A stretch of 64,000 nucleotides of DNA from an uncultured bacterium. Its GTDB lineage: Bacteria > Verrucomicrobiota > Kiritimatiellia > CAIKKV01 > CAITUY01. Shown here piece after piece: positions 13,586 to 35,506 of this stretch; position 1 is the stretch's first letter, and each line of letters opens with the position of its first letter. The position numbers were made by a program, and so were the translations under genes. The notes beneath the pieces were generated by a model that ran no database searches, was not told the origin of the DNA, and saw only the letters and a list, made by a program, of their open reading frames with translations. The stretch lies in assembly GCA_903908715.1 (NCBI GenBank), contig CAIVSY010000106.1, positions 1 through 64,000 of the forward strand, read 5' to 3'.

Positions 13586-14653
13586 ATGAAGGACTTCGTG
13601 ATTCAAAACGACAGGAAGCATATCATGCAGCGCATGGGAGATGTCTCCCAACTGGCCGGCGCCAAGCGGTACGAATTGATTGACGGCAAGGCCAAGGGGG
13701 TTGAAGCCGTCGATTTCTGGACCGGAACCGGGTTTGCATTCACAGTCCTGCCCGGCCGCGGAATGGACATCGCCTGGGCATCCTACAAAGGTGTGCCCGT
13801 CGGCTACATGTCGAAGACCGGCGTTGTCTCGCCCTCCTATTACGAGAGCGACGGTTTCCGCTGGCTCAGGACCTTCTTTGCAGGGTTGTTGACCACTTGC
13901 GGATTGTCCAACGCCGGCTTGCCCTGCACCGACAAGGACACTCTTCTGGGAACAGAGGACTTCGGGTTGCACGGCCGGATCACAAACACCGGTGCTGACA
14001 ATGTGTGTGTCCGGGAGGAATGGCTCGAAGATCACTTCGCGATGAGTGTCTCGGGCCGCGTACGGGAATCGCGCCTGTTCGGCGAAAACCTGACGTTGAC
14101 CCGTACGATTTCAACCGGGATGGGAGAATCCAGCCTGCGCATAAAAGACGTTGTGGAGAATGAAGGATTCCAGGCGCAGCCTGTCATGATCCTGTATCAC
14201 ATCAACCTGGGGTACCCGCTGCTGGACGAGGGAAGCCGGATGGTCTGCCGCTCACGCAGCATCAAGGCCAACACGCCGGAGGCAGAGGCGGAACAGGCGA
14301 CCTTTGACCATATGGGCCCGCCCGTCATAGGCGCCCAGGAGAAACTGTATTTCCATGTGCCCGAAGGCGACACAAACGGGAACGCAGCCGCCGCACTGGT
14401 GAACGAGAAGCTTGAACTCGGCGCCTACATCCGGTTCAACACCAGGCAATTGCCCTACATGAGCCAGTGGAAATCTCTCTGTGCCGCCGAATACGTGCTT
14501 GGCATCGAGCCGGGCAACTGCTTACCTGTCGGACGCGTAAAACAGCGCGAGCGGGGTGATCTTGAGATGCTTGCCCCGGGGGCGAAGAAGACCATCGAGG
14601 TCGAAATCGGTATTCTCGACGGCAAGAAGGCGATTGCCGCGTTTCGTCCTTGA
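13586..14653 (+). CDS. DUF4432 / aldose 1-epimerase-like protein
   Basis: A 355-residue beta-sandwich protein related to galactose mutarotases. Family signatures are LPGRGMDI, LLTTCGLSNAG and FGLHGRI, the last carrying a conserved His. Such proteins interconvert anomers or epimerise free sugars before an isomerase or kinase acts. AAGGAGA lies before ATG 13586, 44 bp after the UroD-like gene. The neighbouring isomerase and kinase support preparation of a reducing sugar in the cytoplasm. The exact reaction is unknown. Confidence 0.8.
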   Translation: MKDFVIQNDRKHIMQRMGDVSQLAGAKRYELIDGKAKGVEAVDFWTGTGFAFTVLPGRGMDIAWASYKGVPVGYMSKTGVVSPSYYESDGFRWLRTFFAGLLTTCGLSNAGLPCTDKDTLLGTEDFGLHGRITNTGADNVCVREEWLEDHFAMSVSGRVRESRLFGENLTLTRTISTGMGESSLRIKDVVENEGFQAQPVMILYHINLGYPLLDEGSRMVCRSRSIKANTPEAEAEQATFDHMGPPVIGAQEKLYFHVPEGDTNGNAAAALVNEKLELGAYIRFNTRQLPYMSQWKSLCAAEYVLGIEPGNCLPVGRVKQRERGDLEMLAPGAKKTIEVEIGILDGKKAIAAFRP

Positions 14654-14687
14654 TCCGACAGGGCAAGCCATTGGGAGGGTTTTTCGT

Positions 14688-16616
14688 ATGCGAGAATGGA
14701 AGAAGTTCACTATCGATGCGCTTTCGCCCACACACCTGGCCGAATTCGGGGACTTCGCCCGCAAGGCGCGCGGCGACATCCTGAAAATGACGACTTTCGC
14801 AGGTTCCGGGCATCCCGGCGGCGCCCTCTCTTCCGCGGACATCTACACGATCCTGTGGCACTGCGCGAATCTTTCACCCGAAACAATCAGGGATCCTGGT
14901 CGAGATATCATCCTGGCAAGCCATGGTCACACCGCGGCGGCCGTCTATGCCGTCATGGGCAATCTGGGTTACTATGATATCTCGCGGATCGACGCGACCT
15001 ATCGCCAACTGGACACCTGTTTCGACGGCCACCCGAATCACCATCTCCCTGGGATTGAATGGTGCAGCGGCAGCCTGGGCCAGGGATTGTCTGCAGCCAG
15101 CGGCTTCGCCCTTGCGGGCCGGATGCAGAAGCAGGACCGTCATGTTTTTGTGGTCATGGGCGATGGCGAACAGCAGAAGGGCCAGATGATGGAGGCCTGC
15201 GAGTTTGCCGCCAAGCATCAACTCTGGAACCTGACGGCGATCGTCGACCTGAATGGGCTTCAAGCGTCCGGAAAGACCCGCGAGGTGATGCCCCAGAGAC
15301 TCGACCTGAAATACCAGTCGGCAGGCTGGAATGTCCTGAAGATCAACGGGCATGATATGCAGGAAATCTACCAGGCACTGCGTGCCGGCTACCTGTGCCG
15401 AACCGCCCCAACCCTCATTCTGGCGGAAACCGTCATGGGGAAAGGCGTGTCGTTCATCGAGAACCGTTTTGAATTCCATGGCGCCGTGCTTTCGCGTGAC
15501 CAATACAAGCAGGCAATGGCTGAACTGGGCGTTGAAGCCATATCACCCAAGCCGGCAACAGCCACCGCGCCCTGCGTGGACCGCTGCGCACGTCCTCCGG
15601 TTGAAGAGCGCGTGTCGTTCGGTAATCCGATTGAATACGGCAAGGATAAACAGGTGGACAATCGGTCAGCCTTCGGGGCCGCGCTGCTGGATGTGGTAAA
15701 GGCCAATTCAGGACCGGGTGCCGTGCCGATCGCCGTCCTGGATTGCGATCTGGCGCCCTGCGTTCGGACTCAGGCGGTGGCAGACCAGTTCCCGGGCCAT
15801 TTCATTCAATGCGGCATACAGGAACACAATGCCACAACGGTCGGAGGCGCCCTTGCCAAAGCCGGTGTGCTGGCATTCTTCGCTGAATTCGGGGTTTTTG
15901 GACTGGATGAAACATATGGCCAGCACCGGATCCTGGATCTCAATGAAGTCGGATTCAAACAGGTCATCACGCATTGCGGCCTGGATGTCGGTGAAGACGG
16001 CAAGACACATCAGTGCATCGACTATATTTCCCTGGCCGCCAACCTGCTGAGTTATCGCCTGATTCTCCCGGCCGATGCCAACCAGACGGATCGGGTGATC
16101 CGGTATGTCGCCACCACGCCCGGGAACTTCATCGTAGCCATGGGCCGATCCAAGATTCCCGTTCTGCAGACTGCGGCCGGCCACCTGGCCTATCCGGCCG
16201 CCTACCGATTCGAGTATGGGAAAGCCGACTGGCTGGCCCGCGGGAAGCATGGCGTCGTGATCAGCTACGGGACCCTGCTCCACAGGGCGCTCCAGGCCCG
16301 CGCGAAACTGCAGGCGAAAGGGGTGGACATCGGAGTCCTGAACCTGTCTTGCCCGCTGGAACTGGATAAGGGCGCAATCGAGGAAGCGGCCGCCACAGGC
16401 CTGATCGTATGCTACGAAGATCATCACATCCGGACAGGGGCCGGCGCCCTGCTGGGCGCGCATCTGGCCGAAACCGGCTTGCGATGCACCTATCACCGGA
16501 TGGGAATTGAGCGCCATGGGTCCTCCGGCACACCCGAGGACCAATTCCGCCAGCATCATCTGGACACGGATAGCCTGGTTAAGGCAGTGTTGCGATTTCA
16601 CGGGAAACAGGAGTAG
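14688..16616 (+). CDS. transketolase, single-chain
   Basis: At about 642 residues it has the length of a full transketolase. The N-terminal thiamine diphosphate module carries MGDGEQQKG followed about 25 residues later by VDLNG (the GDG...N motif). The second module has the catalytic Glu in CGIQEHNATT, and a C-terminal domain follows. It moves two-carbon units between ketose and aldose phosphates. GGGAGG lies upstream of ATG 14688. A dedicated copy inside a sugar operon, directly before an isomerase and a kinase, suggests that the pathway's phosphorylated ketose enters or is cut by transketolase chemistry. Loops differ from housekeeping enzymes, so a non-standard ketose is possible. Confidence 0.88.
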   Translation: MREWKKFTIDALSPTHLAEFGDFARKARGDILKMTTFAGSGHPGGALSSADIYTILWHCANLSPETIRDPGRDIILASHGHTAAAVYAVMGNLGYYDISRIDATYRQLDTCFDGHPNHHLPGIEWCSGSLGQGLSAASGFALAGRMQKQDRHVFVVMGDGEQQKGQMMEACEFAAKHQLWNLTAIVDLNGLQASGKTREVMPQRLDLKYQSAGWNVLKINGHDMQEIYQALRAGYLCRTAPTLILAETVMGKGVSFIENRFEFHGAVLSRDQYKQAMAELGVEAISPKPATATAPCVDRCARPPVEERVSFGNPIEYGKDKQVDNRSAFGAALLDVVKANSGPGAVPIAVLDCDLAPCVRTQAVADQFPGHFIQCGIQEHNATTVGGALAKAGVLAFFAEFGVFGLDETYGQHRILDLNEVGFKQVITHCGLDVGEDGKTHQCIDYISLAANLLSYRLILPADANQTDRVIRYVATTPGNFIVAMGRSKIPVLQTAAGHLAYPAAYRFEYGKADWLARGKHGVVISYGTLLHRALQARAKLQAKGVDIGVLNLSCPLELDKGAIEEAAATGLIVCYEDHHIRTGAGALLGAHLAETGLRCTYHRMGIERHGSSGTPEDQFRQHHLDTDSLVKAVLRFHGKQE

Positions 16617-16669
16617 AGTCGGGTTGGATCTCAATCGGAAGCGTAGGCTGAAAAAAAAGGAGAGCAGGC

Positions 16670-18076
16670 ATGCAAAAGGTAAAGATTGGTTTCATTCCTT
16701 CAAGCTGGGACGCATGGAACGGGGACGACTACGCCCAGAAGATGCGCGATCGCTGTGTCGCGGTCCTGAAGAGCATTCCCGGTCTCGACTTGGTGGTGCC
16801 GCCGAAAAACCTTACGGAATTCGGATGCGTCAGCACCGTCGAGGAAGGCAAGGCTGCCCTCGCCCTCTTCAAGCGCGAGGAGATTCAAGGCCTCCTGATC
16901 GGCAACATGACCTTCGGCATGGAAGTCGCCGTCGGTACCGTGCTGAACGGACTTCGCAAGGATATGCCCATCCTGCACTTCTGCACCAAGAGCGGCCCTT
17001 ACACGGCCGAGGGCGTGCGCCTGACCGACAACTGGTGCGGGCAGTTCATGACGATATCCGCCATCAAGCGGCGCGGGTTCCGCTATGAACATCTTGTAAC
17101 CTGCAACCCCGAGGAGGAACCTTTCAAGGCCAAGGCGGAGGCCTTTACCCGCGCCTGCAATGCAATCCAGCGCTTCAAGGGCGCTAAGATCGGACAACTC
17201 GGAGCCAAACCGCAGCTCTTCGAGTCGGAAAACTGGAGCGAACAGGCCATGCAGAGGGACTTCTCCCAAATGGTCGTTCCCATGGATCTGGATCGCGTGC
17301 TGACCATCATCGAAAACATCAGCCCCAAGGATCCTGCGGTGAAGCGGGTCATGGCCCAGATCACAGACGGCGTGGATGTCGCCGAAGAAACCGAAAACAG
17401 CGTGATGAACCTGGCGCGTTGCGAGGTAGGCTATCTGCGGATCGCGGAACAGCTCGATGTGAATGCCCTCGCGATCAACTGCTGGACCCGTGTACAGGAG
17501 CGGCTGGGCTGCTCCGTCTGCTCGGTGATCGGCCGCCTGAACAACCAGGACATGCCAACCGCCTGCGAGGTGGATATCTATGGAGCGGCCACAATGCTGG
17601 CTCTGCACGCCGCCGGGCTCGGCGAAGCCAAGCCTCACTTCATCGACTTCACCGACCTGCATCCTGCCGAGGCAAACACCTGGCTGGCCTGGCACTGCGG
17701 CAACGCGCCGCGGAAAGCCTGCGCTCCGGATTGCCGGCCCAAACTTCTGAAAAATGAACGCCTGATGCAATGGTGTACAAACTGTCATGGAGCCCTTGAG
17801 TTCCGCCTGAAGGACGGTCCGGTAACCTGCGCCCGCCTGGTAGAGTACAACAGCAAGTTCACGATGTTCTTCGGCTCCGGAGAGGTCGTGAATGTTCCTC
17901 CGAACCTGCGTGGAACCTACGGCTGGGTCAAGGTCAATGATGTCGCCGACTGGGAGGCGAAAATGGCTGAACACGGCGTGATTCATCACGGCGCCCTCAT
18001 CCACGACGGCAAGGCGGCTGACGCATTGGAGATGTTCTGCAAGTTCCTGGGTATCGAGGCGGTGCGAGGCGCCTGA
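16670..18076 (+). CDS. L-fucose/L-arabinose isomerase-like protein
   Basis: The 468-residue protein resembles the FucI/AraA fold. It has an N-terminal Rossmann-like domain (GFIPSSWDAWNGDD, then LLIGNMTFGMEVAVG), a central metal domain and a C-terminal barrel. These enzymes convert aldoses to ketoses with a divalent metal. A perfect AAAGGAGAG lies before the ATG. It lies between transketolase and the FGGY kinase, giving the order expected for aldose to ketose to ketose phosphate. A Cys-rich C-terminal segment (CGNAPRKACAPDC, WCTNC) is noticeable and might bind metal. The true sugar cannot be decided between fucose, arabinose and others. Confidence 0.75.
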   Translation: MQKVKIGFIPSSWDAWNGDDYAQKMRDRCVAVLKSIPGLDLVVPPKNLTEFGCVSTVEEGKAALALFKREEIQGLLIGNMTFGMEVAVGTVLNGLRKDMPILHFCTKSGPYTAEGVRLTDNWCGQFMTISAIKRRGFRYEHLVTCNPEEEPFKAKAEAFTRACNAIQRFKGAKIGQLGAKPQLFESENWSEQAMQRDFSQMVVPMDLDRVLTIIENISPKDPAVKRVMAQITDGVDVAEETENSVMNLARCEVGYLRIAEQLDVNALAINCWTRVQERLGCSVCSVIGRLNNQDMPTACEVDIYGAATMLALHAAGLGEAKPHFIDFTDLHPAEANTWLAWHCGNAPRKACAPDCRPKLLKNERLMQWCTNCHGALEFRLKDGPVTCARLVEYNSKFTMFFGSGEVVNVPPNLRGTYGWVKVNDVADWEAKMAEHGVIHHGALIHDGKAADALEMFCKFLGIEAVRGA

Positions 18077-18145
18077 TCCCGATTGAAGCACGATGACGCC
18101 CAGATGCTCCCTGGCATCCGGGCGTTCCACATCCCGGGGTTTCTC

Positions 18146-19657
18146 ATGAGCCTTCTTGGAATCGACATTGGATCGAGCAGTTGCAAGGGTGTGGTTTTTG
18201 ACGAGGAGGGACGCCCTCTGGTATCAGCCTCAAAAGCTTACGAAACCACTTCCCCTGCCCCGGGCAGAATGGAAATGGATGCAGGGCGGTTCTGGGACGC
18301 CGTTGCCGGCGTAATCCGGGAATTGGCGCGGCAGACGCCAGCAGATCCGATTGCCGCCCTCAGCGTCAGCTGTCACGGCGAAACGCTTGTTCCCCTGGGG
18401 CCCGACGGTGCAGCCTGCGGCCCTGCCATGTTGAATTCAGATCACCGGGCAGGCGCGCAGGCGAATCGTCTGAGCAAGGCTCTTGGCACGGAGGCCATAC
18501 ATCGGATTACCGGCTCCCCACCCCATGCGATGTTCCCGCTTTGCAAGGTGCTCTGGCTGAAGGAAAACGAACCGGATGCCTTTGACCGGGTCAGGCGCTT
18601 CGTAAGCGTTGGAGCCTACATCCTGTCCCGGATGGGCTTGGAGCCGCTTACAGACCACTCCCTGGCCTCGCGCATGATGGCTTTTGATATCCGGTTGCGG
18701 CAATGGTCGGACAGTCTTTTAAAGGCAGCCGGCATTTCCCCGGACCAGTTGGATCTTATTCGTCCAGCAGGCGAACCGGCGGGTGCCCTCCCTGCAAACG
18801 CAGCACGGGACCTTGGATTGCCGAAGGGAACCGTGGTGGTCATGGGAGGTCACGACCAGCCGTGCGGTGCCTTGGGTGCGGGAATCGTCGATCCCGGTGA
18901 GGTCAGCGATTCTGCCGGCACTTTCGAATGTCTCGTCGCGGCCTCGCAGTCCCCGGCAGATGCCCGGGCAGCCTTTGTTCATTCCCTGAACTCCTATTGC
19001 CACGTCGTTCCTCACCGGTATGTAACGCTTGCCTTCTTCCCCGGAGGGATTGCCTCGCAATGGTTTCTCGACCAGTTTTGCGGCGAGGACTGCGTGCAGG
19101 CCGCAAAAGAGGGCCGCAGCTTGCATGAGCTCCTGGCCGAACGGGTCAAGTCAGCCGGTGCGGATCCAACGGGCATCATCTTTACACCGCACCTGATCGG
19201 ATCCTTTAATCCACGCTGGAACGCCAACGCACGGGGAGCAATCGCCGGGCTCGGAATCGGCTCCACCCGCCACCATCTGTATAAGGCTGTTTTCGAGGGA
19301 CTCGCCTGCGAACTCTCCCTGAATATTCACGCACTCGAGGAAGCTGTCGGCCCGATCGGCCAGATCCGGATCTTCGGCGGTAACGCTCGTTCCTTGTTCA
19401 CGGTCCAACTGCGTGCGGATATCACCGGACACGACATGGTGCTGCTGGATACGTCCGAGGCCGTCTGCCGGGGTGCCGCCATGCTTGCGGGCATCGGGAT
19501 CGGCCTCTACAGGGATGCAAAGGATGCCGTCCTGCGGGCCGTGCGAACCACACAGGTCATCGCCAGCGATCACCGCCGGACAAGCCTGTACTCCGCGCAG
19601 TTTGGACGATACCAGTCGCTCTACGACTCGCTCCACCCCGCCAATCCCAGACCCTAG
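18146..19657 (+). CDS. FGGY family carbohydrate kinase
   Basis: A 503-residue sugar kinase of the xylulokinase/fuculokinase type. It begins with the phosphate-binding strand GIDIGSSSCKG, carries GGHDQPCGALGAG in the middle and ends with the second ATPase half (FEGLACELSLNI, FGGNARS). It phosphorylates a ketose or polyol, presumably the product of the isomerase upstream. ATG 18146 is chosen because the conserved start follows at once; the ribosome binding site is weak. It is the last gene of the plus-strand operon and runs tail to tail with the GH2-GNAT gene 26 bp away. No clear terminator hairpin separates them. Confidence 0.85.
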   Translation: MSLLGIDIGSSSCKGVVFDEEGRPLVSASKAYETTSPAPGRMEMDAGRFWDAVAGVIRELARQTPADPIAALSVSCHGETLVPLGPDGAACGPAMLNSDHRAGAQANRLSKALGTEAIHRITGSPPHAMFPLCKVLWLKENEPDAFDRVRRFVSVGAYILSRMGLEPLTDHSLASRMMAFDIRLRQWSDSLLKAAGISPDQLDLIRPAGEPAGALPANAARDLGLPKGTVVVMGGHDQPCGALGAGIVDPGEVSDSAGTFECLVAASQSPADARAAFVHSLNSYCHVVPHRYVTLAFFPGGIASQWFLDQFCGEDCVQAAKEGRSLHELLAERVKSAGADPTGIIFTPHLIGSFNPRWNANARGAIAGLGIGSTRHHLYKAVFEGLACELSLNIHALEEAVGPIGQIRIFGGNARSLFTVQLRADITGHDMVLLDTSEAVCRGAAMLAGIGIGLYRDAKDAVLRAVRTTQVIASDHRRTSLYSAQFGRYQSLYDSLHPANPRP

Positions 19658-19683: not shown

Positions 19684-22017
19684 TCAAAGATCCAGTTGAA
19701 GGGCACGTTCCACAGAAGGGTGCTTCAGTTTCGAGTTCAAGCCAGCCCAGGTGCTTCGCGCATTGGCCGTTCTCATGTCCGGCTCAAATCCGAAACCCAA
19801 GTACAAGGCAATGGCGCCAGTCCGTTCCGTCGTCGTGACAAGGTAACAGTTGTCGTGCCACTCCGCCAGGCAGTTCATGGCGTGTGTCATCATCGCCTTG
19901 CCAACACCCTTGCCCTGGAAGCGCGGGCGTACCGCCACCCAGTGAATCCGGCCAGCATCCCGTCCATGAAAGTCGCGGTTGTACCAGGCGCTGATTGTCC
20001 CCACTCCGAGCCCGCGCGAATCCGTCACGATGAAGCACCGTCGTGGCACGGCACCAGGATCGTCGCCGAACTCTTCGCGGAACAAACCGTCCTTGATCGT
20101 GAGGTACGGTTCGGCGTCGCGCCATATGTCTGTCCAAAGGCCGATATCATCCACTGTCATGGGGCGGATGCCATAGCCCGCCGGCATGGGCATTTGCGGG
20201 ATGCCGCGCATATGCGGCCGGCTCATGATCACTGTCGTTCCAGTTGGCGCCGCCGACAACCGCGGCATGGCTCCTTGCCGGGCCCGGAACATCTTCTGGG
20301 CCGTCCAGTATGGCAACAACCGGCGCCGGTCGCGACTGACAACGCCAAACGGCGCGGTCGCCAGCCCGTTAAAAAAACGACCAGCCGGCCAGGAATGATC
20401 CGCCCAACACCAGATCGTGGCTCCGCAGAGGTACGGGGCATCGAACGTGGCAAACTCCGCCTCGAGGGAGCGCGCGTGTTCGTCTTCGCCAAGCGCATGG
20501 CCGAATGTCCCGGCGAACGAAGCATACCCGAACTCGGCAATCAGAACCGGTTTGGCGGGGTATTGGCTGTGCAACCCGGCGATCCGCTCACGTTGCCAAG
20601 CAACGGATCCTGCCAGATCGAAAGTCCCCGGCTGATGACCGCGTGCCTCGAAGTCCATTACGGGATAGGAGTTGATGCAGACGACGTCATCTTCATCGAA
20701 TTGCGAATGTCCGTCCTCCCAGCGGTTCATCACGTGGACACACAGCCGAGAAGGATCGAGCGCTCGTGCCAGCCGGATCAGCGCCTGATTTCCTTCCGCC
20801 ACGCCAGGCTCTCCTTCGGGCGTTTCGTTGCTCACCGACCAGAAGATGACGGCGGGATGATTGAAGTCGCGCTCAATCATCCGCTCCAACTGCCGGGAGG
20901 CGGAGACCACGCGGGCGGCCTGGGTACGGCGGCCCTCTTCGCCCTGGTTCCAGAAATAGAGCGGAATCTCTGCGAACACCAGTAACCCCAGCCGGTCACA
21001 CAGGTCCAGTTCGGCCGGATGGTGCGGATAATGGCAGAGCCGAACGAAATTGGCGCCGGCCTCTTTTATCCGCTCCAGATCCTGCCTTGTCGTCTCGAGA
21101 TCTGTCGCCATCGCCGTCCGTGGCGAATCCTCATGCCGGTTGAACCCGGTCAGGAAGATTTTTTCGCCGTTGAGCAGAAGCCCCTCCGGAGTCGCCTCGA
21201 TATGCCTGAACCCGAATGTCGTTGCTACCTCATCCATCACCCCGTCCCCAGCCGCAAGGCGGACGCGAGCCTGGTAAAGCACCGGGGCCGACGGCGACCA
21301 GGCGCGGGCGCCCGCAAGCGTACCGTTCAGTTTCACCTCTTCCGCTGAGCCCGCCTCAAGCCTGACGGGAGGCGCCTGCAACCGCAGGCATGGATTCCCG
21401 TCCGCCTCATGGATAGCCACCTCAAGCCCCGTGACGGCCGCCATGATGCCGGTGTTACGGATTCGCGCCTGGACATTCAGCCTGCCGCCCGCCGCTCCCG
21501 GTTTAGCGCTGATCCGCAGCTGATCGACGTACAGCGGTGCGGTCGAATAGAGGAGCACCTCGCGAATGATGCCGCCGTAGCCGCGCCAGCCGACATGCAT
21601 GCCCGGGACATCCCCCTCGTGGTGAGAGTTGTCCACCAGGACAGCCAGCACGTTCCGGCCATCCCAACCTATCTGGTCGCCCACCTCAAATTCAAACGGC
21701 AGAAAACCATCCCGGTGTTCTCCCAGGCACTCCCCGTTCAGCCAAACCTTCGCCCTGTAATTCACGGCCTCAAAGCGCAGGACCACCCGCCGACCGCGCC
21801 ACCCGGCAGGAACAAAGAACGTCCGGCGATACCAAACCAAGCCTTCGTAGTAATCAATGCCCGCACAGCACGCCTCGAAACAGGACGGCACGGCTACCTC
21901 CCGCCACAACGGAAAATCCCGGTCGGCCCGCCAAAAACCCAGCACCTCCCCATCCCCATGCGGGTCAGGGCTACACCGCCACGGGGAAGCAAGTTCCAGC
22001 GTCTGTCGTTCGCTCAT
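19684..22017 (-). CDS. GH2 glycosidase fused to GNAT acetyltransferase
   Basis: A 777-residue fusion. Residues 1-585 form a GH2 enzyme (sugar-binding, immunoglobulin-like and TIM-barrel domains) with acid/base Glu398 in SVSNETPEG and nucleophile Glu495 in LIAEFGYAS. Residues about 598-777 are a complete GNAT domain with the acetyl-CoA loop RPRFQGKGVGKAMM (697-710) and a C-terminal GFGFEP strand. GH2 enzymes are beta-galactosidases, glucuronidases or mannosidases. No signal peptide is present, which fits the need for cytosolic acetyl-CoA. The linker is short and uninterrupted. An internal ATG at 20226 could start the GNAT alone but has no Shine-Dalgarno. GAGGGAG precedes ATG 22017. The acetyl acceptor is unknown; an amino sugar released by this locus is a guess. 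Confidence 0.88.
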   Translation of the reverse strand: MSERQTLELASPWRCSPDPHGDGEVLGFWRADRDFPLWREVAVPSCFEACCAGIDYYEGLVWYRRTFFVPAGWRGRRVVLRFEAVNYRAKVWLNGECLGEHRDGFLPFEFEVGDQIGWDGRNVLAVLVDNSHHEGDVPGMHVGWRGYGGIIREVLLYSTAPLYVDQLRISAKPGAAGGRLNVQARIRNTGIMAAVTGLEVAIHEADGNPCLRLQAPPVRLEAGSAEEVKLNGTLAGARAWSPSAPVLYQARVRLAAGDGVMDEVATTFGFRHIEATPEGLLLNGEKIFLTGFNRHEDSPRTAMATDLETTRQDLERIKEAGANFVRLCHYPHHPAELDLCDRLGLLVFAEIPLYFWNQGEEGRRTQAARVVSASRQLERMIERDFNHPAVIFWSVSNETPEGEPGVAEGNQALIRLARALDPSRLCVHVMNRWEDGHSQFDEDDVVCINSYPVMDFEARGHQPGTFDLAGSVAWQRERIAGLHSQYPAKPVLIAEFGYASFAGTFGHALGEDEHARSLEAEFATFDAPYLCGATIWCWADHSWPAGRFFNGLATAPFGVVSRDRRRLLPYWTAQKMFRARQGAMPRLSAAPTGTTVIMSRPHMRGIPQMPMPAGYGIRPMTVDDIGLWTDIWRDAEPYLTIKDGLFREEFGDDPGAVPRRCFIVTDSRGLGVGTISAWYNRDFHGRDAGRIHWVAVRPRFQGKGVGKAMMTHAMNCLAEWHDNCYLVTTTERTGAIALYLGFGFEPDMRTANARSTWAGLNSKLKHPSVERALQLDL

Positions 22018-22185
22018 AGCTCCCTCATTGCCACGCAGCGCGCCGTCGACTGCCGCATATGCACGTTCGGAACGGGGGCGCCGCGTTCAATAAGCACGTC
22101 CCGCAGATCATCAGCCTCAACAGAAATACTTTCGCACGCGCAAATAGTCAAAGTGGACGCACATCAAAATACCAACCGCAACTGG

Positions 22186-24060
22186 TCAGAGACTGCGGAT
22201 GGCGCGGCGATACAACGCCAGCGTGATCCGGATCTCGCTGGGCCGGTTCCGGGCCATCCAAAGCTTCACAAAGCGCGCCCGGAGCCCCATCATCTCACGT
22301 TTCAGGGCGCGGCGTACTTCCGGCGTATCACGGCCACCCGGTCCAAACGCTTTCATTTTACGAATCGCACACGCCATGGTATCGGCGGCAAACTCCCAAT
22401 AAGGAAGAACCTTCAGGGGGTCCGCGCCCTTCTGCCGGGATGCCGCCGCCAACGTCTTGCGGACCCGATGGATCCGTGGCAAATACCCGGCCGCAAAAGC
22501 TGCGTCCACCCGCTTCTTCCGCTTCACAACGCGGCCATTCAACGCTTCAATGACTTCTACGGGCTTGGTCCGTCTAAATACATCATCGCCCGGCGCGGCG
22601 AAGAGAGTATGCCGCCACAGGCTTTGATAGTATCCGGCGGCATTGACCTCCGCGATCTCGCCCATTTCCGAAACCGCGTCGGCAAGCGCCTTGTCGTTCG
22701 AGCGCAGGAACAGGCGGGCAAACCGGGCGTGAAAACTTTTCTGGTTCGCCCCCGTATTCCACCCCTGCTCGGCTCCGAACAGATATCCGTGCCACGAGAA
22801 CTCCATGAAGTTATAGTGGCCGCCATCCCCCCAATCGGTGTTCAGCAGCCCGTCGGCACCATGCCGGTATCCCGCCTTCGCAAACCCATGTATGTTTTCC
22901 ATGGCCTCCGGTAAACGCGGGAAGAGTGCAACCCACGAAGAAGTGCCCGGGCACGCGAAGAACGGCAAATCAGCTTTTTCAAAGTCCTTGATGCGATCGA
23001 AAGGATGGTCGTAGCCGTAACCCCAGTCGAGGACCGTCATGTCCGACGGAATCCGCCCGATGAGTTCCGGATAGTGGCGGATGATGTCGCCCCAGAACAT
23101 GACGCTCTTGCCGTATTTCGCCGCAAGATCGCGCACCTTGCGGACATGATTCAGATAGACCACGCCCTTGCCCAGTTTCTTGCACAATGTGTAACTCTGC
23201 CCCAGACCAAGATCCCACGTTTCATCGCAACAGATGTTGAATCTTGTAGAACGGAAGAGTGGCAGGAACTCGGCAAACAGGCTATCCAGGAAAGAATAAA
23301 CCCCGGGGACAGCCGGTGAAAGCGACCAGGCGATCAGCCGCTGCCAGGCCTGGCGATCATCCGGGGTCTCGTACTTGCCAATGCCACGGTCTTCCGCCAG
23401 GTGATGATATTCAGGATGCTTAAGGACGGTCGCCAGATGACCGAAGGTGGCCAGAGACGGCACCAACTCTATGCCGCGCGCATCGCAGTACGCATCGAGC
23501 GTCAGAATGTCCTCGGCCGTTAACGGCGAGGCGCCCTGACCGATCCGGGGATGACCGCGGAACGCGAACGTGTGCTCAATGTAAAGCTGCAACTGGTTGA
23601 TCTTGTATTGCGCCAGATGGTCGGCCATCTTCATGAGCCATTCCAGTTTCGGCACACGGCCGCGGCAAACATCATAATAGACACCCCGATCCGCAAAATC
23701 AGGCCAATCCTCGATTGCCAGGCATGGCAGTACACCGTTTGACTGAGCAACCAGCTGACGCAATGTTTGAACACCATGACTCACAGCGGCCGCAGTCCGG
23801 CCCGCAATGGTCACGCCGGCCGGACTTACCCTCAGGGTATAGCCGCCTGGCCGGAGCTTCGGGTTCAGGGAAAGCGCGATTGTGTCCGCCACCCCGGGAA
23901 CGGAAACATAAACCTTCGTGCACGGCAGGAATTCACGAACCAGGGTCGCGGCTCCAAAGAGGGATTGCGAGGCAATACCGATATGGATTTTCCCGGTTAA
24001 CGGCATACATCCGTTGGTGAGTTTGACCTTCTTGGGTTCCGGCAGAAATACAGGCTTCAT
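22186..24060 (-). CDS. GH20-like beta-N-acetylhexosaminidase
   Basis: The 624-residue protein has an N-terminal hexosaminidase alpha/beta domain (about 1-115, with the typical GVQTLRQL) and a TIM barrel opening DRGVYYDVCRGRVP. The catalytic pair is Asp279-Glu280 in ICCDETWDLG. GH20 enzymes remove terminal GlcNAc or GalNAc through the substrate's own acetamido group. No signal peptide is seen, so it probably acts in the cytoplasm. ATG 24060 follows AGGAAAGG and leaves 53 bp to the upstream nitrilase gene; a longer in-frame start would overlap that gene. The C-terminal 120 residues are basic and helical. Confidence 0.85.
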   Translation of the reverse strand: MKPVFLPEPKKVKLTNGCMPLTGKIHIGIASQSLFGAATLVREFLPCTKVYVSVPGVADTIALSLNPKLRPGGYTLRVSPAGVTIAGRTAAAVSHGVQTLRQLVAQSNGVLPCLAIEDWPDFADRGVYYDVCRGRVPKLEWLMKMADHLAQYKINQLQLYIEHTFAFRGHPRIGQGASPLTAEDILTLDAYCDARGIELVPSLATFGHLATVLKHPEYHHLAEDRGIGKYETPDDRQAWQRLIAWSLSPAVPGVYSFLDSLFAEFLPLFRSTRFNICCDETWDLGLGQSYTLCKKLGKGVVYLNHVRKVRDLAAKYGKSVMFWGDIIRHYPELIGRIPSDMTVLDWGYGYDHPFDRIKDFEKADLPFFACPGTSSWVALFPRLPEAMENIHGFAKAGYRHGADGLLNTDWGDGGHYNFMEFSWHGYLFGAEQGWNTGANQKSFHARFARLFLRSNDKALADAVSEMGEIAEVNAAGYYQSLWRHTLFAAPGDDVFRRTKPVEVIEALNGRVVKRKKRVDAAFAAGYLPRIHRVRKTLAAASRQKGADPLKVLPYWEFAADTMACAIRKMKAFGPGGRDTPEVRRALKREMMGLRARFVKLWMARNRPSEIRITLALYRRAIRSL

Positions 24061-24113
24061 ACACAACCTTTCCTGTTCTTTTGTTATTGCATTACGTTTC
24101 AATGAAATTCCCA

Positions 24114-24971
24114 TCATGGCTTACTTGCCCCATCAGCCTGCCTGGCGTGACGCGAAGGGCGTCCCAGGAACATCCGCTGCCCCTTGGCCAGAAGCATCGG
24201 GCAATAGTTATGCAGCCATCCGTTCCTCGACAACCCGTCGGGGAAATCATGAAAAAGCATTCCGGCGCGATGCTGGGGCAACTGCTTGGCGATCGTCGCG
24301 TCAGGCCTGGCGACAAATGTCCCCCAGTTGGAATACCTCCGGGATGAATTATTGGCGACGGCCCACATCCGGTTGTCCGCGCAACGTGTGGGCACCTGCC
24401 CCTCTGTCAGGCAATCGAGGCAGCTGGCGCCGTCGTGATGCGCGTTATAGAAGGAGTGCAGCATCAATGTAACGCCCTTCTCCCGATACGCCGCATAGAT
24501 CTGCGGATAGCACGCGTCATAGCAGATGGCAAAACCCACCTTGACCCCGCGGATCGTCCGGGTCACCAGCCGGTTGCCGGCGGAATAGTACTGCCGGTCT
24601 GATGAAGTAAGCATGCACTTGTCATAACGGTCCACAATGCGGCCATCCGGCCCGATCAGATAGAGGCAATTCATGGGCGGATTCTTTGCATCGAGAAAAT
24701 GGGAGGAACCTAGCACGAGCCAGATTCCCAGATCCGCGACCAGATCCTGCAGGTGTGCGGTCTCAGTGCGCAGAAGATCCCAGTTGAACCCGCGGAACGA
24801 GTCGAAATCCAGCCGGGCGTATCCCGAAAGGCAGGTCTCGGAGGTATGCAGCAGGTGTGCGCCACCGTTCTTGGCGGCCTTCAGGTAACGCCGGATATAT
24901 CCGGCGTTCCGGCGGATATCATCGCTGACTGGGAACTGGCAGGACGCAACTCGCAACTGATTCTGTTTCAT
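24114..24971 (-). CDS. nitrilase superfamily carbon-nitrogen hydrolase
   Basis: A 285-residue enzyme with the complete Glu-Lys-Cys triad: Glu45 in HTSETCLSG, Lys118 in DRYDKCML and Cys150 in FAICYDACYP. The family hydrolyses amides, carbamoyl groups or nitriles. The gene lies between a Gfo/Idh oxidoreductase and GH20 with short spacers, so it is part of the sugar-catabolic series. With the creatininase-like protein it is the second amide-hydrolysing family in the locus, consistent with nitrogen-containing sugars. The substrate is unknown. Confidence 0.85.
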   Translation of the reverse strand: MKQNQLRVASCQFPVSDDIRRNAGYIRRYLKAAKNGGAHLLHTSETCLSGYARLDFDSFRGFNWDLLRTETAHLQDLVADLGIWLVLGSSHFLDAKNPPMNCLYLIGPDGRIVDRYDKCMLTSSDRQYYSAGNRLVTRTIRGVKVGFAICYDACYPQIYAAYREKGVTLMLHSFYNAHHDGASCLDCLTEGQVPTRCADNRMWAVANNSSRRYSNWGTFVARPDATIAKQLPQHRAGMLFHDFPDGLSRNGWLHNYCPMLLAKGQRMFLGRPSRHARQADGASKP

Positions 24972-27635: not shown

Positions 27636-30077
27636 CTATCCGAGGGTTACCACCACCTTCACGGTATCCTTGCCCTTCGGCGGCGGGATCACATTCCCTT
27701 TGACCGGAACGCCGTCCACTGTCAAGGCCGCCACACCCTTGCATACACTCCGCGGATTGTTCACTGTGATCTCATAACGGACGCCGCGGAACACCCTGCT
27801 GACCGTGAATCCCTTCCACGCTTTCGGGATGCACGGATCCACGCGCAACCCCGCGTAATCCGGCTGGATCCCCAGGATCCCCTGGCTGGCCGCCACAAAC
27901 GTCCACGCCGCCGTTCCGGTTAGCCAACTATTCTTGGCCTCGCCGAAACACGGGGCATCCTTCCCGGCGATCATCTGCGCGTAGACATACGGCTCGCTCC
28001 GGTAGGTCTCGATCTGGCTCTCCTTGGCCGACGGGCATATGCTGAGGTAATACTCCAGCGCCCGTTCGCCGTCGCCCAACAGGCACCACGCCAGATGGAT
28101 CCAGGTGTTGTTGTGGCAGAAGATGCCACCATTCTCCTTCACCCCTGGCGGATAGGATGTGACCTCGCCAAGCTCCAGTTGGTAGGTGCTGTATGCGGGC
28201 TGCTGCAAAACGATGCCGTTCGGAGTGTAAAGGTACCGGTGCACGCTCTCCATCGCCTGCCGCGCCCGGCCATTATCGGTTCCGGCTCCGCCCAGCACGC
28301 ACCATCCCTGGCTTTCGATGAAGATCTTCCCTTCCTCGTTGTCATTGGAGCCGACAGGCTTGCCGGCCGCGTCGTAGGCACGCCGGTACCATTCCCCATC
28401 CCATGCCGTGGCCTCAACAGCCTTGAGGATATCCGCATAATGCCCTTCCATCCGCCGCGCATCGGATTCCTGCCCTTTCGCCCGGTACATGGCGGCCATC
28501 TCGCGGCTCGCATAGAGGAAAAGGCCGGCAATCATAACCGATTCGGCAATCGAATCCTTGACGTCACCCGCGGTCTGAAAAGACTCGTTGGGCTCCTTGG
28601 AGAAGCAGTTCAGATTCATGCAGTCATTCCAGTCCGCATGCCCAATCAACGGCAACCCGTGCGGGCCCCGCTTCTTCATGGTATAGGTAATACTCGTCTC
28701 CAGATGGTGCAACAGCGTGGTTCCCGCATCGGGACGATCCGCATACCCCGCAGGGGCGTCAAGGATTGAGAAATCTCCGGTCTCACGGATATACGAGCAG
28801 GCCGACAGCACCAGCCACAGGTGGTCGTCATAGAAGTCGCCACCGATGTCCGCATTGCCCTTCTTGGTCAGCGGCTGATACTGATGAAAGCACGTCCCGT
28901 CCGACAACTGTGTGGCGGCAATATCAAGAATCCGCTCCCTTGCCCGTTCGGGAATCATGTGAACGAAGCCGAGGATATCCTGATTACTGTCCCGGAAACC
29001 CATGCCGCGGCCGATACCGGTCTCGTACATGGAGGCCGACCTGGACAGGTTGAAAGTCGCCATGCACTGATACTGGTTCCAGGTGTTGACCATACGGTTG
29101 GCATGCTCGTCTGGACACCGTGCCTGGAATCGTGAAAGCAGGGTCTCCCAACCCCGCTGCAATTCCGCAAAGGCCCTGTCCACCGACCCGGGCCGGCTGT
29201 ACTTCTCGACAAGTGCACGCCCGACACTCTTGTTCATGACAAACAGACCGTCGAACTTGGGTGCATCCCCCTGCTCCACATAAGCCAGGATAAAACTGAA
29301 CGTCTCTTCCTGACCCGGCGCAAGATCGAGCGTCACCTCGTGAGAGCCGATCGGATTCCAGCCAAAGGCCCGGCTATTAACCGCCTGCGCGCGGAACGGC
29401 ACCCTGGCCTCATGCAGACCCTCGTGAATCCCAACGAATGCGTCACGGCTTGTATCGTATCCGCTGACACTACGCGTACACGCAAACAAGGTGTAGTGGT
29501 TGCGCCGTTCCCGGTATTCGGTCTTGTGATAGATAGCGCTTCCCTCGATTTCGACCTCGCCCAGCGAATAGGTGCGCTGGTAATTGGTCATGTCGTTCAA
29601 GGCCTCAAAGAAACAGAACTCCTGATAGGAATACAGCTTGATCTTCTTGGCCTTGGCCGACTTGTTGCGTACCGTCACCTTCCACAGTTCGCAGTTCTCG
29701 CGGTTGGGCACAAAGAAGAGGCTTTCCACCTCCAAGCCGGCCTTTTCCCCTGTAATCCGGGTGTACCCCATCCCGTGGCGGCACTCATACCGATCCAGTT
29801 GCGCCTTCACAGGCTTCCACCCTGGATTCCAGACTGAACCCGAATCGTTTATGTACAAGTACCTGCCGCCCAGATCGTAAGGAACATTGTTGTAGCGGTA
29901 GCGAGTCAGCCGCCGCAACTTGGCATCCTTCCAGAACGTATATCCACCGGCCGTATTGGTGCAAAGGCCGAAAAAATCGTCCTGTCCGAGGTAGTTGAGC
30001 CACGGCAGGGGCGTATCCGGGCGCTGGATCACGTATTCACGCCGCGCATCGTCAAAGTACCCGTAGGGATTCTTCAT
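27636..30077 (-). CDS. GH94 phosphorylase (cellobiose/chitobiose phosphorylase-like)
   Basis: The 813-residue length matches GH94 disaccharide phosphorylases. The N-terminal beta-sandwich starts with YGYFDDARREYVI, and the alpha/alpha barrel carries GIGRGMGFRDSNQD and the catalytic Asp in HADWNDCMNL. These enzymes split a beta-linked disaccharide with phosphate, releasing an alpha-sugar-1-phosphate and a free sugar, which saves ATP. No signal peptide is present, as expected. The GH20 neighbour makes N,N'-diacetylchitobiose a reasonable substrate, but cellobiose-like specificity is equally compatible. AAAGGA lies before the ATG. Confidence 0.92.
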   Translation of the reverse strand: MKNPYGYFDDARREYVIQRPDTPLPWLNYLGQDDFFGLCTNTAGGYTFWKDAKLRRLTRYRYNNVPYDLGGRYLYINDSGSVWNPGWKPVKAQLDRYECRHGMGYTRITGEKAGLEVESLFFVPNRENCELWKVTVRNKSAKAKKIKLYSYQEFCFFEALNDMTNYQRTYSLGEVEIEGSAIYHKTEYRERRNHYTLFACTRSVSGYDTSRDAFVGIHEGLHEARVPFRAQAVNSRAFGWNPIGSHEVTLDLAPGQEETFSFILAYVEQGDAPKFDGLFVMNKSVGRALVEKYSRPGSVDRAFAELQRGWETLLSRFQARCPDEHANRMVNTWNQYQCMATFNLSRSASMYETGIGRGMGFRDSNQDILGFVHMIPERARERILDIAATQLSDGTCFHQYQPLTKKGNADIGGDFYDDHLWLVLSACSYIRETGDFSILDAPAGYADRPDAGTTLLHHLETSITYTMKKRGPHGLPLIGHADWNDCMNLNCFSKEPNESFQTAGDVKDSIAESVMIAGLFLYASREMAAMYRAKGQESDARRMEGHYADILKAVEATAWDGEWYRRAYDAAGKPVGSNDNEEGKIFIESQGWCVLGGAGTDNGRARQAMESVHRYLYTPNGIVLQQPAYSTYQLELGEVTSYPPGVKENGGIFCHNNTWIHLAWCLLGDGERALEYYLSICPSAKESQIETYRSEPYVYAQMIAGKDAPCFGEAKNSWLTGTAAWTFVAASQGILGIQPDYAGLRVDPCIPKAWKGFTVSRVFRGVRYEITVNNPRSVCKGVAALTVDGVPVKGNVIPPPKGKDTVKVVVTLG

Positions 30078-30222: not shown

Positions 30223-32721
30223 TCAGTCGATTTCAGTCGCGATCCTACATCGTTGTCCCTGCCCGTTTGTCTGCCACTCATATATGGATCGTGGATTCGC
30301 CGTCGGTCGCGCCGGCAGCCCGCCTGGCGGCGCCGGCCTGGCCCGGTTCTCCTTATTCACAAGAACGTCGGCCACACCATCGACAATTCGCCCGTTTCCG
30401 CCATAAACAACATTCCCGACAAGCTCAAAACCGACACAATCGGGAGTGCGCAGGAATAACATGGGTAAATGTGTTCCTCCCAGCACAAAAACATTGTTCC
30501 GGAGAATGGCATCAAAGAAACCGCCATCCGCATAGAACCCGACACCGTCCTTCACCACAAACCGGTTGTGAAGAAAGAGCCAGTTCTCACTCACACCACG
30601 GGCGTAGACTCCGGCCTTGTCGGATTCAACATCACAGTTGTACACCACATTCCGGGGGCCGTTGGGCCCATGCGTTTCATCCATGGAGGGAGTTGAGTAC
30701 ATTCCATACCCGTAGCTTCCGTAAGGCCCCGTGGGACCAACCCGGCAGTTCTCAAAAAGGTTCTCGGTTGACCAACCGGCATGCCACTGGGCGTCGCTCC
30801 CTTCAAAGACAGAGTTTCGGATGACATTGCCCTGTGCCCCGAATTGCACTTGGGGGGCATGCCTGAATCTGCGGCACACCACATTCTCCATCAGGCAGTC
30901 CCATGAGCATGTGAACCCACCGTATGCGCCCCAGTTGACGTTGGCCTTATGGATCCGGAAGTCAAACCCGTCAAACTCACAATCCCGGACCTCACACCAC
31001 TTGGCCTCCTGCAGGTGGATAGCCGAGCAACCGCTCTGGATCACATTGACTCGCCGGGCCCAGCAGTTCCAGGCCCAATGCGAATTGACAGTGTGGAAGG
31101 GCATCCGGCACATGTGCTCGATGGTCAGATCCTCAATCCCGCACCGCTCCACGGGCTGGATGAGCCGTATGTAGGATCCGTCAACCACGGGGAAATCGAT
31201 ACGCAACGGCTGGGACAGGACCAGAGTGCTCCCCTCGACAGCCTTGACCTCATATGCGTTGATCCGGACTCCCCACCCGATGGACTCCTTGTGACCGGTC
31301 AATGCTTCCCACCGGGGCGTTGATGGCGCGCGGATATAGAATTTGTCGCCGCGGCCAATCCCACTGGCATCCCTGAGAGTCAGTCTTGTATCGCCGCGCT
31401 TGCCATCTTCCGCAAGCAGCCGGTCCTGCCCATCAGGCGCCATGTTCCCCGACCACGTGAACACAGAGGCCTCAGGCCATGTTTTCGGGAACTGTGCCTC
31501 TGTGTGTACGATACTGTACCGGAAAACAAGGCGGGTGCGCTCGCGGCCAGCCCCCCGAATCACAACCCCGCTATGTCGGATCACCACCGGATCATTCAGA
31601 TAGAAGGTTCCCGGATCAATCCGGATTGCACCGCCGCCCTTGGCCGCCACCTGCTCGCAGGCCAGGGCCAGCATACCTGAAATATTCGTTTTAGGTTTCG
31701 CGCCTAGATCCTTCAATTCCAATACCACAGGCACATCGGGAATACCTCCTTGGACGCCTACGTTCTGCCAGTTTGGATACACAATCCCATCCGGTCCGGG
31801 TACATCAGCCGGCGTCATCCGGTTCGTCTCCCCCGCCCGGATCTTATACTGGCTGGGCCACGGAGGAATCGCCATACGGACCGGTTCTCCCGACATACTT
31901 CCGCCCTCGTAGTAGCGAGGCACCGCTTGCCCGACCCGCGCAGCCTCTTCGGCAGGAGGCACTGCATCCGGCGATATCGCCTGATGCAGTTTTTCCAGGC
32001 CGGCACGAGCAAACGCCACATCCGATACCCAGGTCGCATCGTCCGCGAAAATCAGATGTCCCCACTTACGAGGATTCAACACAATCCCTCCGGGGATCGG
32101 CACCCAGGCTGATTGCCGCATCGTATCAAAGTCGTAGGCGCCGGGATAATCGGCCCGCATAAGGTTTAAGCCCCAAACATCTGCCGGTCGAGGTGCCGGA
32201 ACGTTTAAACCCGACCAGGGGATCCGGACATCCGCCTGCCATCCGCCGGCTGTATTGGTGACCGCAGTAACAAGCCCTTCCACATTAAACTTCGGATCAA
32301 CGCCCCGCGCATCGTTAACCACTCCGCCGGCCGTCACTTGCACCATGAACACATTGCTGAATGCATGCGTATGACCAGGATCAATCCAGACATAGACGCT
32401 ATCATCCTTCCACAACTTTGAACTGTCCCGACCCTCCTGCTGAGCCAAAACCGCCCGATCCTCACAGTGGAACACAATACGAAGGCCATCGGCATACGTC
32501 TCAACGGAGACTTTCGTTCTTTCCTGCGGCGGGACCATGCTGTCGATAATCCGGAATTCCGGCACAACGGCACCCTTGCCCCGGCCAATTGTCAGGATCC
32601 CAGCCGCATTACCGGGGGACGGAATTTCGGGCCGTGCAACGCCGGGGGGCATAGTCTTGCACCCAGCAAGGAAAGCCATAATCCCGAGAATCGAAACGAC
32701 AACCTTCAGTGTTCTCTTCAT
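30223..32721 (-). CDS. lipoprotein with CBM9-like domain and pectate-lyase-like beta-helix
   Basis: The 832-residue protein has a lipoprotein signal with lipidation Cys21 (AFLAGC). A CBM9/DOMON-like sugar-binding domain follows (about 45-240, with KLWKDDSVYVWIDPGHTH) and then a right-handed beta-helix from about 350 on, opening GGAIRIDPGTFYL as in pectate-lyase-type proteins. It is inferred to sit on a membrane facing the periplasm or the cell surface, where it may bind or cleave polysaccharide. The helix family holds lyases, epimerases and hydrolases; catalytic residues cannot be chosen by eye. The CBM9-like domain is a close relative of both domains in the protein encoded at 37398-38861. 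Confidence 0.8.
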   Translation of the reverse strand: MKRTLKVVVSILGIMAFLAGCKTMPPGVARPEIPSPGNAAGILTIGRGKGAVVPEFRIIDSMVPPQERTKVSVETYADGLRIVFHCEDRAVLAQQEGRDSSKLWKDDSVYVWIDPGHTHAFSNVFMVQVTAGGVVNDARGVDPKFNVEGLVTAVTNTAGGWQADVRIPWSGLNVPAPRPADVWGLNLMRADYPGAYDFDTMRQSAWVPIPGGIVLNPRKWGHLIFADDATWVSDVAFARAGLEKLHQAISPDAVPPAEEAARVGQAVPRYYEGGSMSGEPVRMAIPPWPSQYKIRAGETNRMTPADVPGPDGIVYPNWQNVGVQGGIPDVPVVLELKDLGAKPKTNISGMLALACEQVAAKGGGAIRIDPGTFYLNDPVVIRHSGVVIRGAGRERTRLVFRYSIVHTEAQFPKTWPEASVFTWSGNMAPDGQDRLLAEDGKRGDTRLTLRDASGIGRGDKFYIRAPSTPRWEALTGHKESIGWGVRINAYEVKAVEGSTLVLSQPLRIDFPVVDGSYIRLIQPVERCGIEDLTIEHMCRMPFHTVNSHWAWNCWARRVNVIQSGCSAIHLQEAKWCEVRDCEFDGFDFRIHKANVNWGAYGGFTCSWDCLMENVVCRRFRHAPQVQFGAQGNVIRNSVFEGSDAQWHAGWSTENLFENCRVGPTGPYGSYGYGMYSTPSMDETHGPNGPRNVVYNCDVESDKAGVYARGVSENWLFLHNRFVVKDGVGFYADGGFFDAILRNNVFVLGGTHLPMLFLRTPDCVGFELVGNVVYGGNGRIVDGVADVLVNKENRARPAPPGGLPARPTANPRSIYEWQTNGQGQRCRIATEID

Positions 32722-32926
32722 AGATCATTCCCTCGAAACACCTCTCATCGCCACAATATGTGATAACTGGCATCAAAATGAATACCATTGCAAGATCAGG
32801 CCCGATATCCATCTCCTGAAAAATCGATGAATCACACACTGATCCCGGCATTGTCCAGCATGTATTGCTACCACCGGTTCGATTCGACCCTGTACAGCCC
32901 GTATTGCAGACCGAGACGGTGGCGCA

Positions 32927-35284: not shown

Positions 35285-35506
35285 ATCGTTCTCCTTGCCG
35301 CGTGGCGTCTCACGTTCCCCGTTTTCCTGCACTCCAATAAGGCATCATCACGGATTACGCCATCGGCACAATATCCCACCGGAAGCTCGATGCATAAATC
35401 AAACGGGAAGAAAGGGAATACTATTCAATAGCCCCTGGCTCAGCCAAGTTCATTTTTGGAAACTAGCGGGCACGGAAACAACAGTCCAGACAAGAACAGC
35501 CGTGGT

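Follow-up and report, generated by a model that had tools for sequence, protein, structure and literature searches.

A GH2 glycosidase joined to a GNAT acetyltransferase in a single reading frame, a possible two-activity enzyme of uncultured bacteria

The window, i.e. the whole stretch of 64,000 nucleotides analysed here, carries on its minus strand a gene for a single protein with a GH2 glycosidase region in front and a GNAT acetyltransferase domain at the end. The features of the gene and its nearest upstream neighbour are as follows.

19684..22017, minus strand: GH2-GNAT fusion gene, 777 amino acids plus stop, with the start ATG at 22017 and the stop at 19684 (reading frame and Pfam)
22020..22026, minus strand: candidate ribosome-binding site GAGGGAG, just 5' of the fusion ATG (from reading the sequence only)
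20269..22017, minus strand: GH2 glycosidase region, residues 1-583 (Pfam, AlphaFold2, Foldseek)
Residues 36-159: GH2 N-terminal sugar-binding domain (PF02837, above the curated Pfam cut-off)
Residues 163-271: GH2 middle domain (PF00703, above the curated Pfam cut-off)
Residues 277-506: GH2 TIM-barrel domain (PF02836, above the curated Pfam cut-off)
20824..20826, minus strand: Glu398, predicted acid/base, in the motif WSVSNE, aligned with E413 of Escherichia coli UidA and E461 of LacZ
20533..20535, minus strand: Glu495, predicted nucleophile, in the motif AEFG, aligned with E504 of E. coli UidA and E537 of LacZ
20236..20268, minus strand: interdomain linker, about residues 584-594, of low confidence in AlphaFold2 and differing among aligned relatives
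19687..20235, minus strand: GNAT acetyltransferase domain, residues 595-777 (Pfam, AlphaFold2)
19900..19917, minus strand: acetyl-CoA pyrophosphate loop QGKGVG, residues 701-706, of the Q/RxxGxG/A pattern (alignments)
19801..19803, minus strand: Tyr739, candidate general acid of the GNAT, invariant in an alignment of 30 relatives
22186..24117, minus strand: GH20-type beta-hexosaminidase-like neighbour, 168 bp upstream of the fusion gene and on the same strand (Pfam)

The initial annotation described one uninterrupted frame of 777 residues, and its coordinates are right. No stop codon lies within this frame, while the other two frames of the same strand hold 21 and 29 stops. The G+C pattern by codon position also runs on unbroken through the junction between the two parts. 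In AlphaFold2 models both parts are folded domains, and the linker between them is short and of low confidence. A separate GNAT translated from an internal start at Met598 was considered and rejected. No ribosome-binding site is visible ahead of Met598, and this methionine is near-invariant across the GNAT family, stand-alone members included. The protein was also said to lack export signals, and none is visible at its N-terminus. We infer that the fusion protein is soluble and cytosolic, since its first 40 residues, judged by eye, contain no hydrophobic stretch.

A search of related genomes for GH2-GNAT proteins, as the initial annotation had proposed, showed that the fusion recurs in at least six other genomes, all Verrucomicrobiota-type or Planctomycetota MAGs, which makes seven with the window. 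Identity ranges from 44 to 67% across the five near-complete relatives. Among 97 related genomes, full-length fusions were found in the same family as the window (G003, locus L074, 67% identity) and in the same order (G012, locus L081, 51%). The class search gave a 757-residue frame at 44% identity, aligned to query residues 5-744 (G178, locus L080). A species-wide GNAT scan added L075 (bacterium AS06rmzACSIP_294), L078 (Candidatus Brocadiaceae B1Sed10_231) and L079 (Planctomycetes SM23_32), the last of which starts at a contig end within the GH2 part. The scan covered one genome per species for 84,980 GTDB species, using one exact conserved GNAT peptide pattern and keeping the best 80 loci, and more divergent fusions could thus be missed. 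The two halves are conserved to about the same degree when the window is compared with its nearest relative (68% for GH2 and 65% for GNAT).

It follows that the fusion is real. Chance is excluded in practice, as is an assembly or sequencing artefact that joined two neighbouring genes, because seven independent assemblies have the same in-frame junction; the open frame and the continuous codon-position pattern also speak against it, and the sole ground for doubt is the general one that the sequences come from metagenome assembly. The arrangement in relatives that had been named as the refuting case, a GH2 gene next to a separate GNAT gene, was found neither in the 97 related genomes, nor in the searches at class level (346 genomes) and phylum level (388 genomes), both by the GNAT only, nor in the 84,980 GTDB species (searched by the GNAT core pattern). 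Unfused relatives carry one part only. The GH2 part occurs without GNAT in G010 (57%) and G043 (45%), with no hidden GNAT remnant past the stop of either gene, and the GNAT occurs without GH2 in G016 (59%), L077, L082 and others.

In a GNAT tree of 34 sequences, all seven fused proteins fall into one clade (100/99), along with the stand-alone L076, L077, L082 and L086. The GH2 tree places the fused proteins and the two close relatives that are unfused in a single clade (100/100). In its shallower part this tree groups the window with L074, joined next by L075 and after that by L081, and the GNAT tree is compatible with this order. Because the domain trees agree where they are resolved, the best fit is a single old fusion, after which some lineages lost one of the parts; independent fusion events are a possible alternative.

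The N-terminal half belongs to GH2, as judged from its three Pfam domains and from Foldseek matches to GH2 structures. The closest folds are GH2 glucuronidases and galactosidases, and among solved sequences the GH2 enzyme AqGalA (7VQM) is closest. The catalytic pair Glu398 and Glu495, which the initial annotation called intact, is borne out by the alignment with UidA and LacZ, and N397, E398, E495, H295, H329, Y451 and W536 of the catalytic and -1 site match UidA and/or LacZ. All six fusions in which the site is covered (the window, L074, L075, L078, L081 and L080) retain both glutamates. In UidA, the glucuronate carboxylate is bound by N566 and K568 of an N-x-K motif. The corresponding residues in the window are Ala555 and Phe557, relatives have Ser at the first of these positions and Phe or Tyr at the second, and the position of UidA D163 is a Gly in the alignment with the fusion GH2. 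As this signature is missing, identification as a beta-glucuronidase was rejected, and the GH2 half is probably not such an enzyme. The beta-glucuronidase equivalog PRK10150 scores 226.6 bits against a cut-off of 544, and all NCBIfam beta-glucuronidase and beta-galactosidase equivalogs lie far under their cut-offs. A plasmid search gave merely distant GH2-type matches among the matches listed.

The C-terminal half has the GNAT fold and the Q/RxxGxG/A loop, in agreement with the earlier description of a full GNAT with an acetyl-CoA loop. GNAT domains at residues 638-747 score above the curated Pfam cut-off (PF00583, 47.9 bits against 20.7), and modelled alone the domain reaches a pLDDT of 93.8 (AlphaFold2). 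The loop is intact as QGKGVG in the window and kept in seven of seven fusions. By analogy with known GNATs, Tyr739 is a candidate for the general acid. The closest solved folds are GNATs, including tandem GNATs, mycothiol synthase, RmNag, GNA1, the glucosamine N-acetyltransferase of Clostridium acetobutylicum, N-terminal peptide acetyltransferases and Legionella VipF. Several of these acetylate small amine or amino-sugar compounds, and Naa50-type, RimI-type and spermidine acetyltransferases are also among the sequence and fold matches. Sequence identity to the fold matches is weak, about 11-25%. Loop, tyrosine, model and matches support an active GNAT but leave its acceptor unfixed. In one fusion, L080 / L060:6334-8556 (+), the GNAT ends approximately 30 residues early, directly after the GF motif, and no GNAT remnant was found beyond this end in other frames.

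GNATs of this and more distant kinds also occur fused to other domains. Two genomes from a single genus carry more distant relatives ahead of an Amidohydro_2 domain (L066:2295-3959 and L067:3543-5195, both minus strand), and a distant relative stands ahead of a DUF3604-type domain (L068:2159-4483, minus strand). A GNAT of the same family is fused ahead of an esterase-like alpha/beta hydrolase region (L119:4136-5905, plus strand), which has weak matches to glucuronyl esterases and acetyl-xylan esterases.

The fusion gene closes a minus-strand run that encodes a GH94 protein, a PHP/CehA-type protein, a Gfo/Idh/MocA protein, a carbon-nitrogen hydrolase and the GH20-like protein. The GH94 gene (27636-30077, minus strand) encodes a complete phosphorylase-type protein, and upstream of it lie genes for a CBM9 and beta-helix protein and a DUF6259 protein (30223-35332, minus strand). 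Beside the fusion gene, on the plus strand at 14556-19654, three consecutive genes encode a transketolase, a fucose-isomerase-type protein and an FGGY kinase. The best NCBIfam match of the fucose-isomerase-type protein is sulfoquinovose isomerase, at 111 bits against a cut-off of 700, and the three genes may together serve the catabolism of a sugar or sulfosugar.

NagA and NagB both score above cut-off in the genome. Together with the GH20-like and GH94 neighbours they are weakly compatible with amino-sugar use, although the pair is so common that it carries little weight. We do not take the neighbours in the window as strong evidence, because the genes beside the other fusions are unrelated to each other. 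No neighbour is common to the fusion loci; the adjoining genes differ at every locus and share no amino-sugar theme. Likewise, no common theme was seen among the neighbours of the stand-alone GNAT relatives, whose contexts, inspected by eye on parts of the sequences, are unrelated.

We suggest, with a probability of roughly 0.4, that the protein is a cytosolic enzyme with two activities, in which the GH2 part removes a terminal beta-sugar and the GNAT part N-acetylates an amine, perhaps that of an amino sugar. In brief, the N-terminal part would be a retaining exo-beta-glycosidase with an intact active site that lacks the glucuronate-binding signature. The GNAT would be catalytically competent and use acetyl-CoA to acetylate a primary amine. 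Both halves may work on one sugar stream, the GNAT acetylating the amine-bearing sugar before or after cleavage by the GH2 part, as in RmNag, a fungal glycosidase described below. The intact motifs of both halves, the retention of the fusion across Verrucomicrobiota-type and Planctomycetota MAGs, the amino-sugar GNATs among the fold matches, NagA and NagB, the upstream GH20-like and GH94 genes and the RmNag precedent all point this way. Activity of both halves and an amino sugar as the acceptor are what we infer from these points. Against this reading count the weak and mixed fold matches of the GNAT, which do not single out amino sugars, the differing neighbours of the fusion loci and the unrelated contexts of the stand-alone GNATs.

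It is quite conceivable, if short of even odds, that both domains are active but uncoupled. The GNAT would then acetylate a protein, a peptide N-terminus, a polyamine or another amine, and the fusion would merely co-express or co-localise the two activities. The wide spread of stand-alone members of the GNAT family through unrelated gene contexts, the joining of related or more distant GNATs to amidohydrolase, DUF3604 and esterase-like hydrolase domains, and the Naa50-type, RimI-type and spermidine acetyltransferases among the matches are in line with this. However, at least seven genomes that have diverged widely retain the GH2-GNAT order, which suggests that the pairing itself is of advantage.

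Two further readings are less probable than either of these. The GH2 part might bind or read a sugar and switch the GNAT, as proposed for the fungal protein Ngs1, which has the same layout with the glycosidase domain first and the GNAT last and for which sugar-dependent acetyltransferase output has been published (PMC5063960). We regard such a sensor as rather improbable because the catalytic residues are intact: Ngs1 has lost its glycosidase residues, whereas all six fusions covering the site keep both glutamates. It is very doubtful that the GNAT serves for structure or binding without catalysis, as the GNAT-like domain without acetyl-CoA binding does in animal O-GlcNAcase (PMC3814719), because all seven fusions have an intact loop and the tyrosine does not vary among 30 family members, even though the GNAT at L080 ends early.

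The initial annotation knew of no standard family with a GH2-GNAT order, and we agree, as no NCBIfam equivalog above cut-off matches the architecture. No report of a GH2 and GNAT protein was found in the open literature, and no Pfam or NCBIfam name describes one; subscription journals and the InterPro and CAZy architecture lists were outside the scope of this search. The concept of joining a glycosidase to a GNAT is already known; for GH2 with GNAT, these searches gave no earlier report. The further claim that pairing a glycosidase with an amino-sugar acetyltransferase, or sensing acetylation, would be new lacks support in this form, since RmNag has the paired activities (PMC4680927) and Ngs1 senses GlcNAc (PMC5063960).

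In fold, domain order and catalytic residues the N-terminal part resembles UidA, LacZ and the GH2 enzymes of Bacteroides and Ruminococcus. It differs from GH2 beta-glucuronidases and beta-galactosidases in the absent N-x-K motif, in scores far under the equivalog cut-offs and in the extra GNAT. The GNAT half matches the fold of the C. acetobutylicum glucosamine N-acetyltransferase (PDB 5KF1) at a TM of 0.62 by query length. That enzyme is a stand-alone protein of about 316 residues with 11-12% identity and no glycosidase domain.

O-GlcNAcase likewise combines a glycosidase with a GNAT-fold domain. It consists of a GH84 domain and a pseudo-acetyltransferase, the GNAT-like part of the human protein does not bind acetyl-CoA, and one bacterium encodes the two kinds of parts as neighbouring genes (PMC3814719). 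The fusion does not belong to this type, as it has a GH2 domain and an intact acetyl-CoA loop. Ngs1, the GlcNAc sensor of Candida albicans, also has a glycosidase-like domain and a GNAT in a single chain, and the former controls the latter (PMC5063960). Its domain is GH3-like with lost catalytic residues, and it acts on histones, whereas the GH2 residues of the fusion are intact.

RmNag of Rhizomucor miehei is a GH3 beta-N-acetylglucosaminidase with a C-terminal GNAT region and a measured glucosamine N-acetyltransferase activity; glucosamine units are first acetylated by the GNAT region and then cleaved by the glycosidase (PMC4680927; PDB 4ZM6). Like the fusion, it has the glycosidase first and the GNAT last in a single chain, and it is among the fold matches of the GNAT model. 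It differs in being fungal, in its GH3 domain where Pfam assigns the fusion to GH2, in its tandem GNAT region and in its measured activity, the fusion being known from sequence. It is a tentative and on the whole unlikely proposal that the fusion represents a new bacterial bifunctional family, independent of the fungal GH3-GNAT proteins, in which GH2 and an active GNAT cleave and N-acetylate one amino-sugar substrate in a single cytosolic protein. If both halves do act on one sugar, coupling of glycosidase and acetyltransferase would have arisen at least twice, with different glycosidase families, and would be a general solution for handling partly de-acetylated amino sugars. The fusion also supplies a directly testable substrate lead for a widespread, uncharacterised GNAT family.
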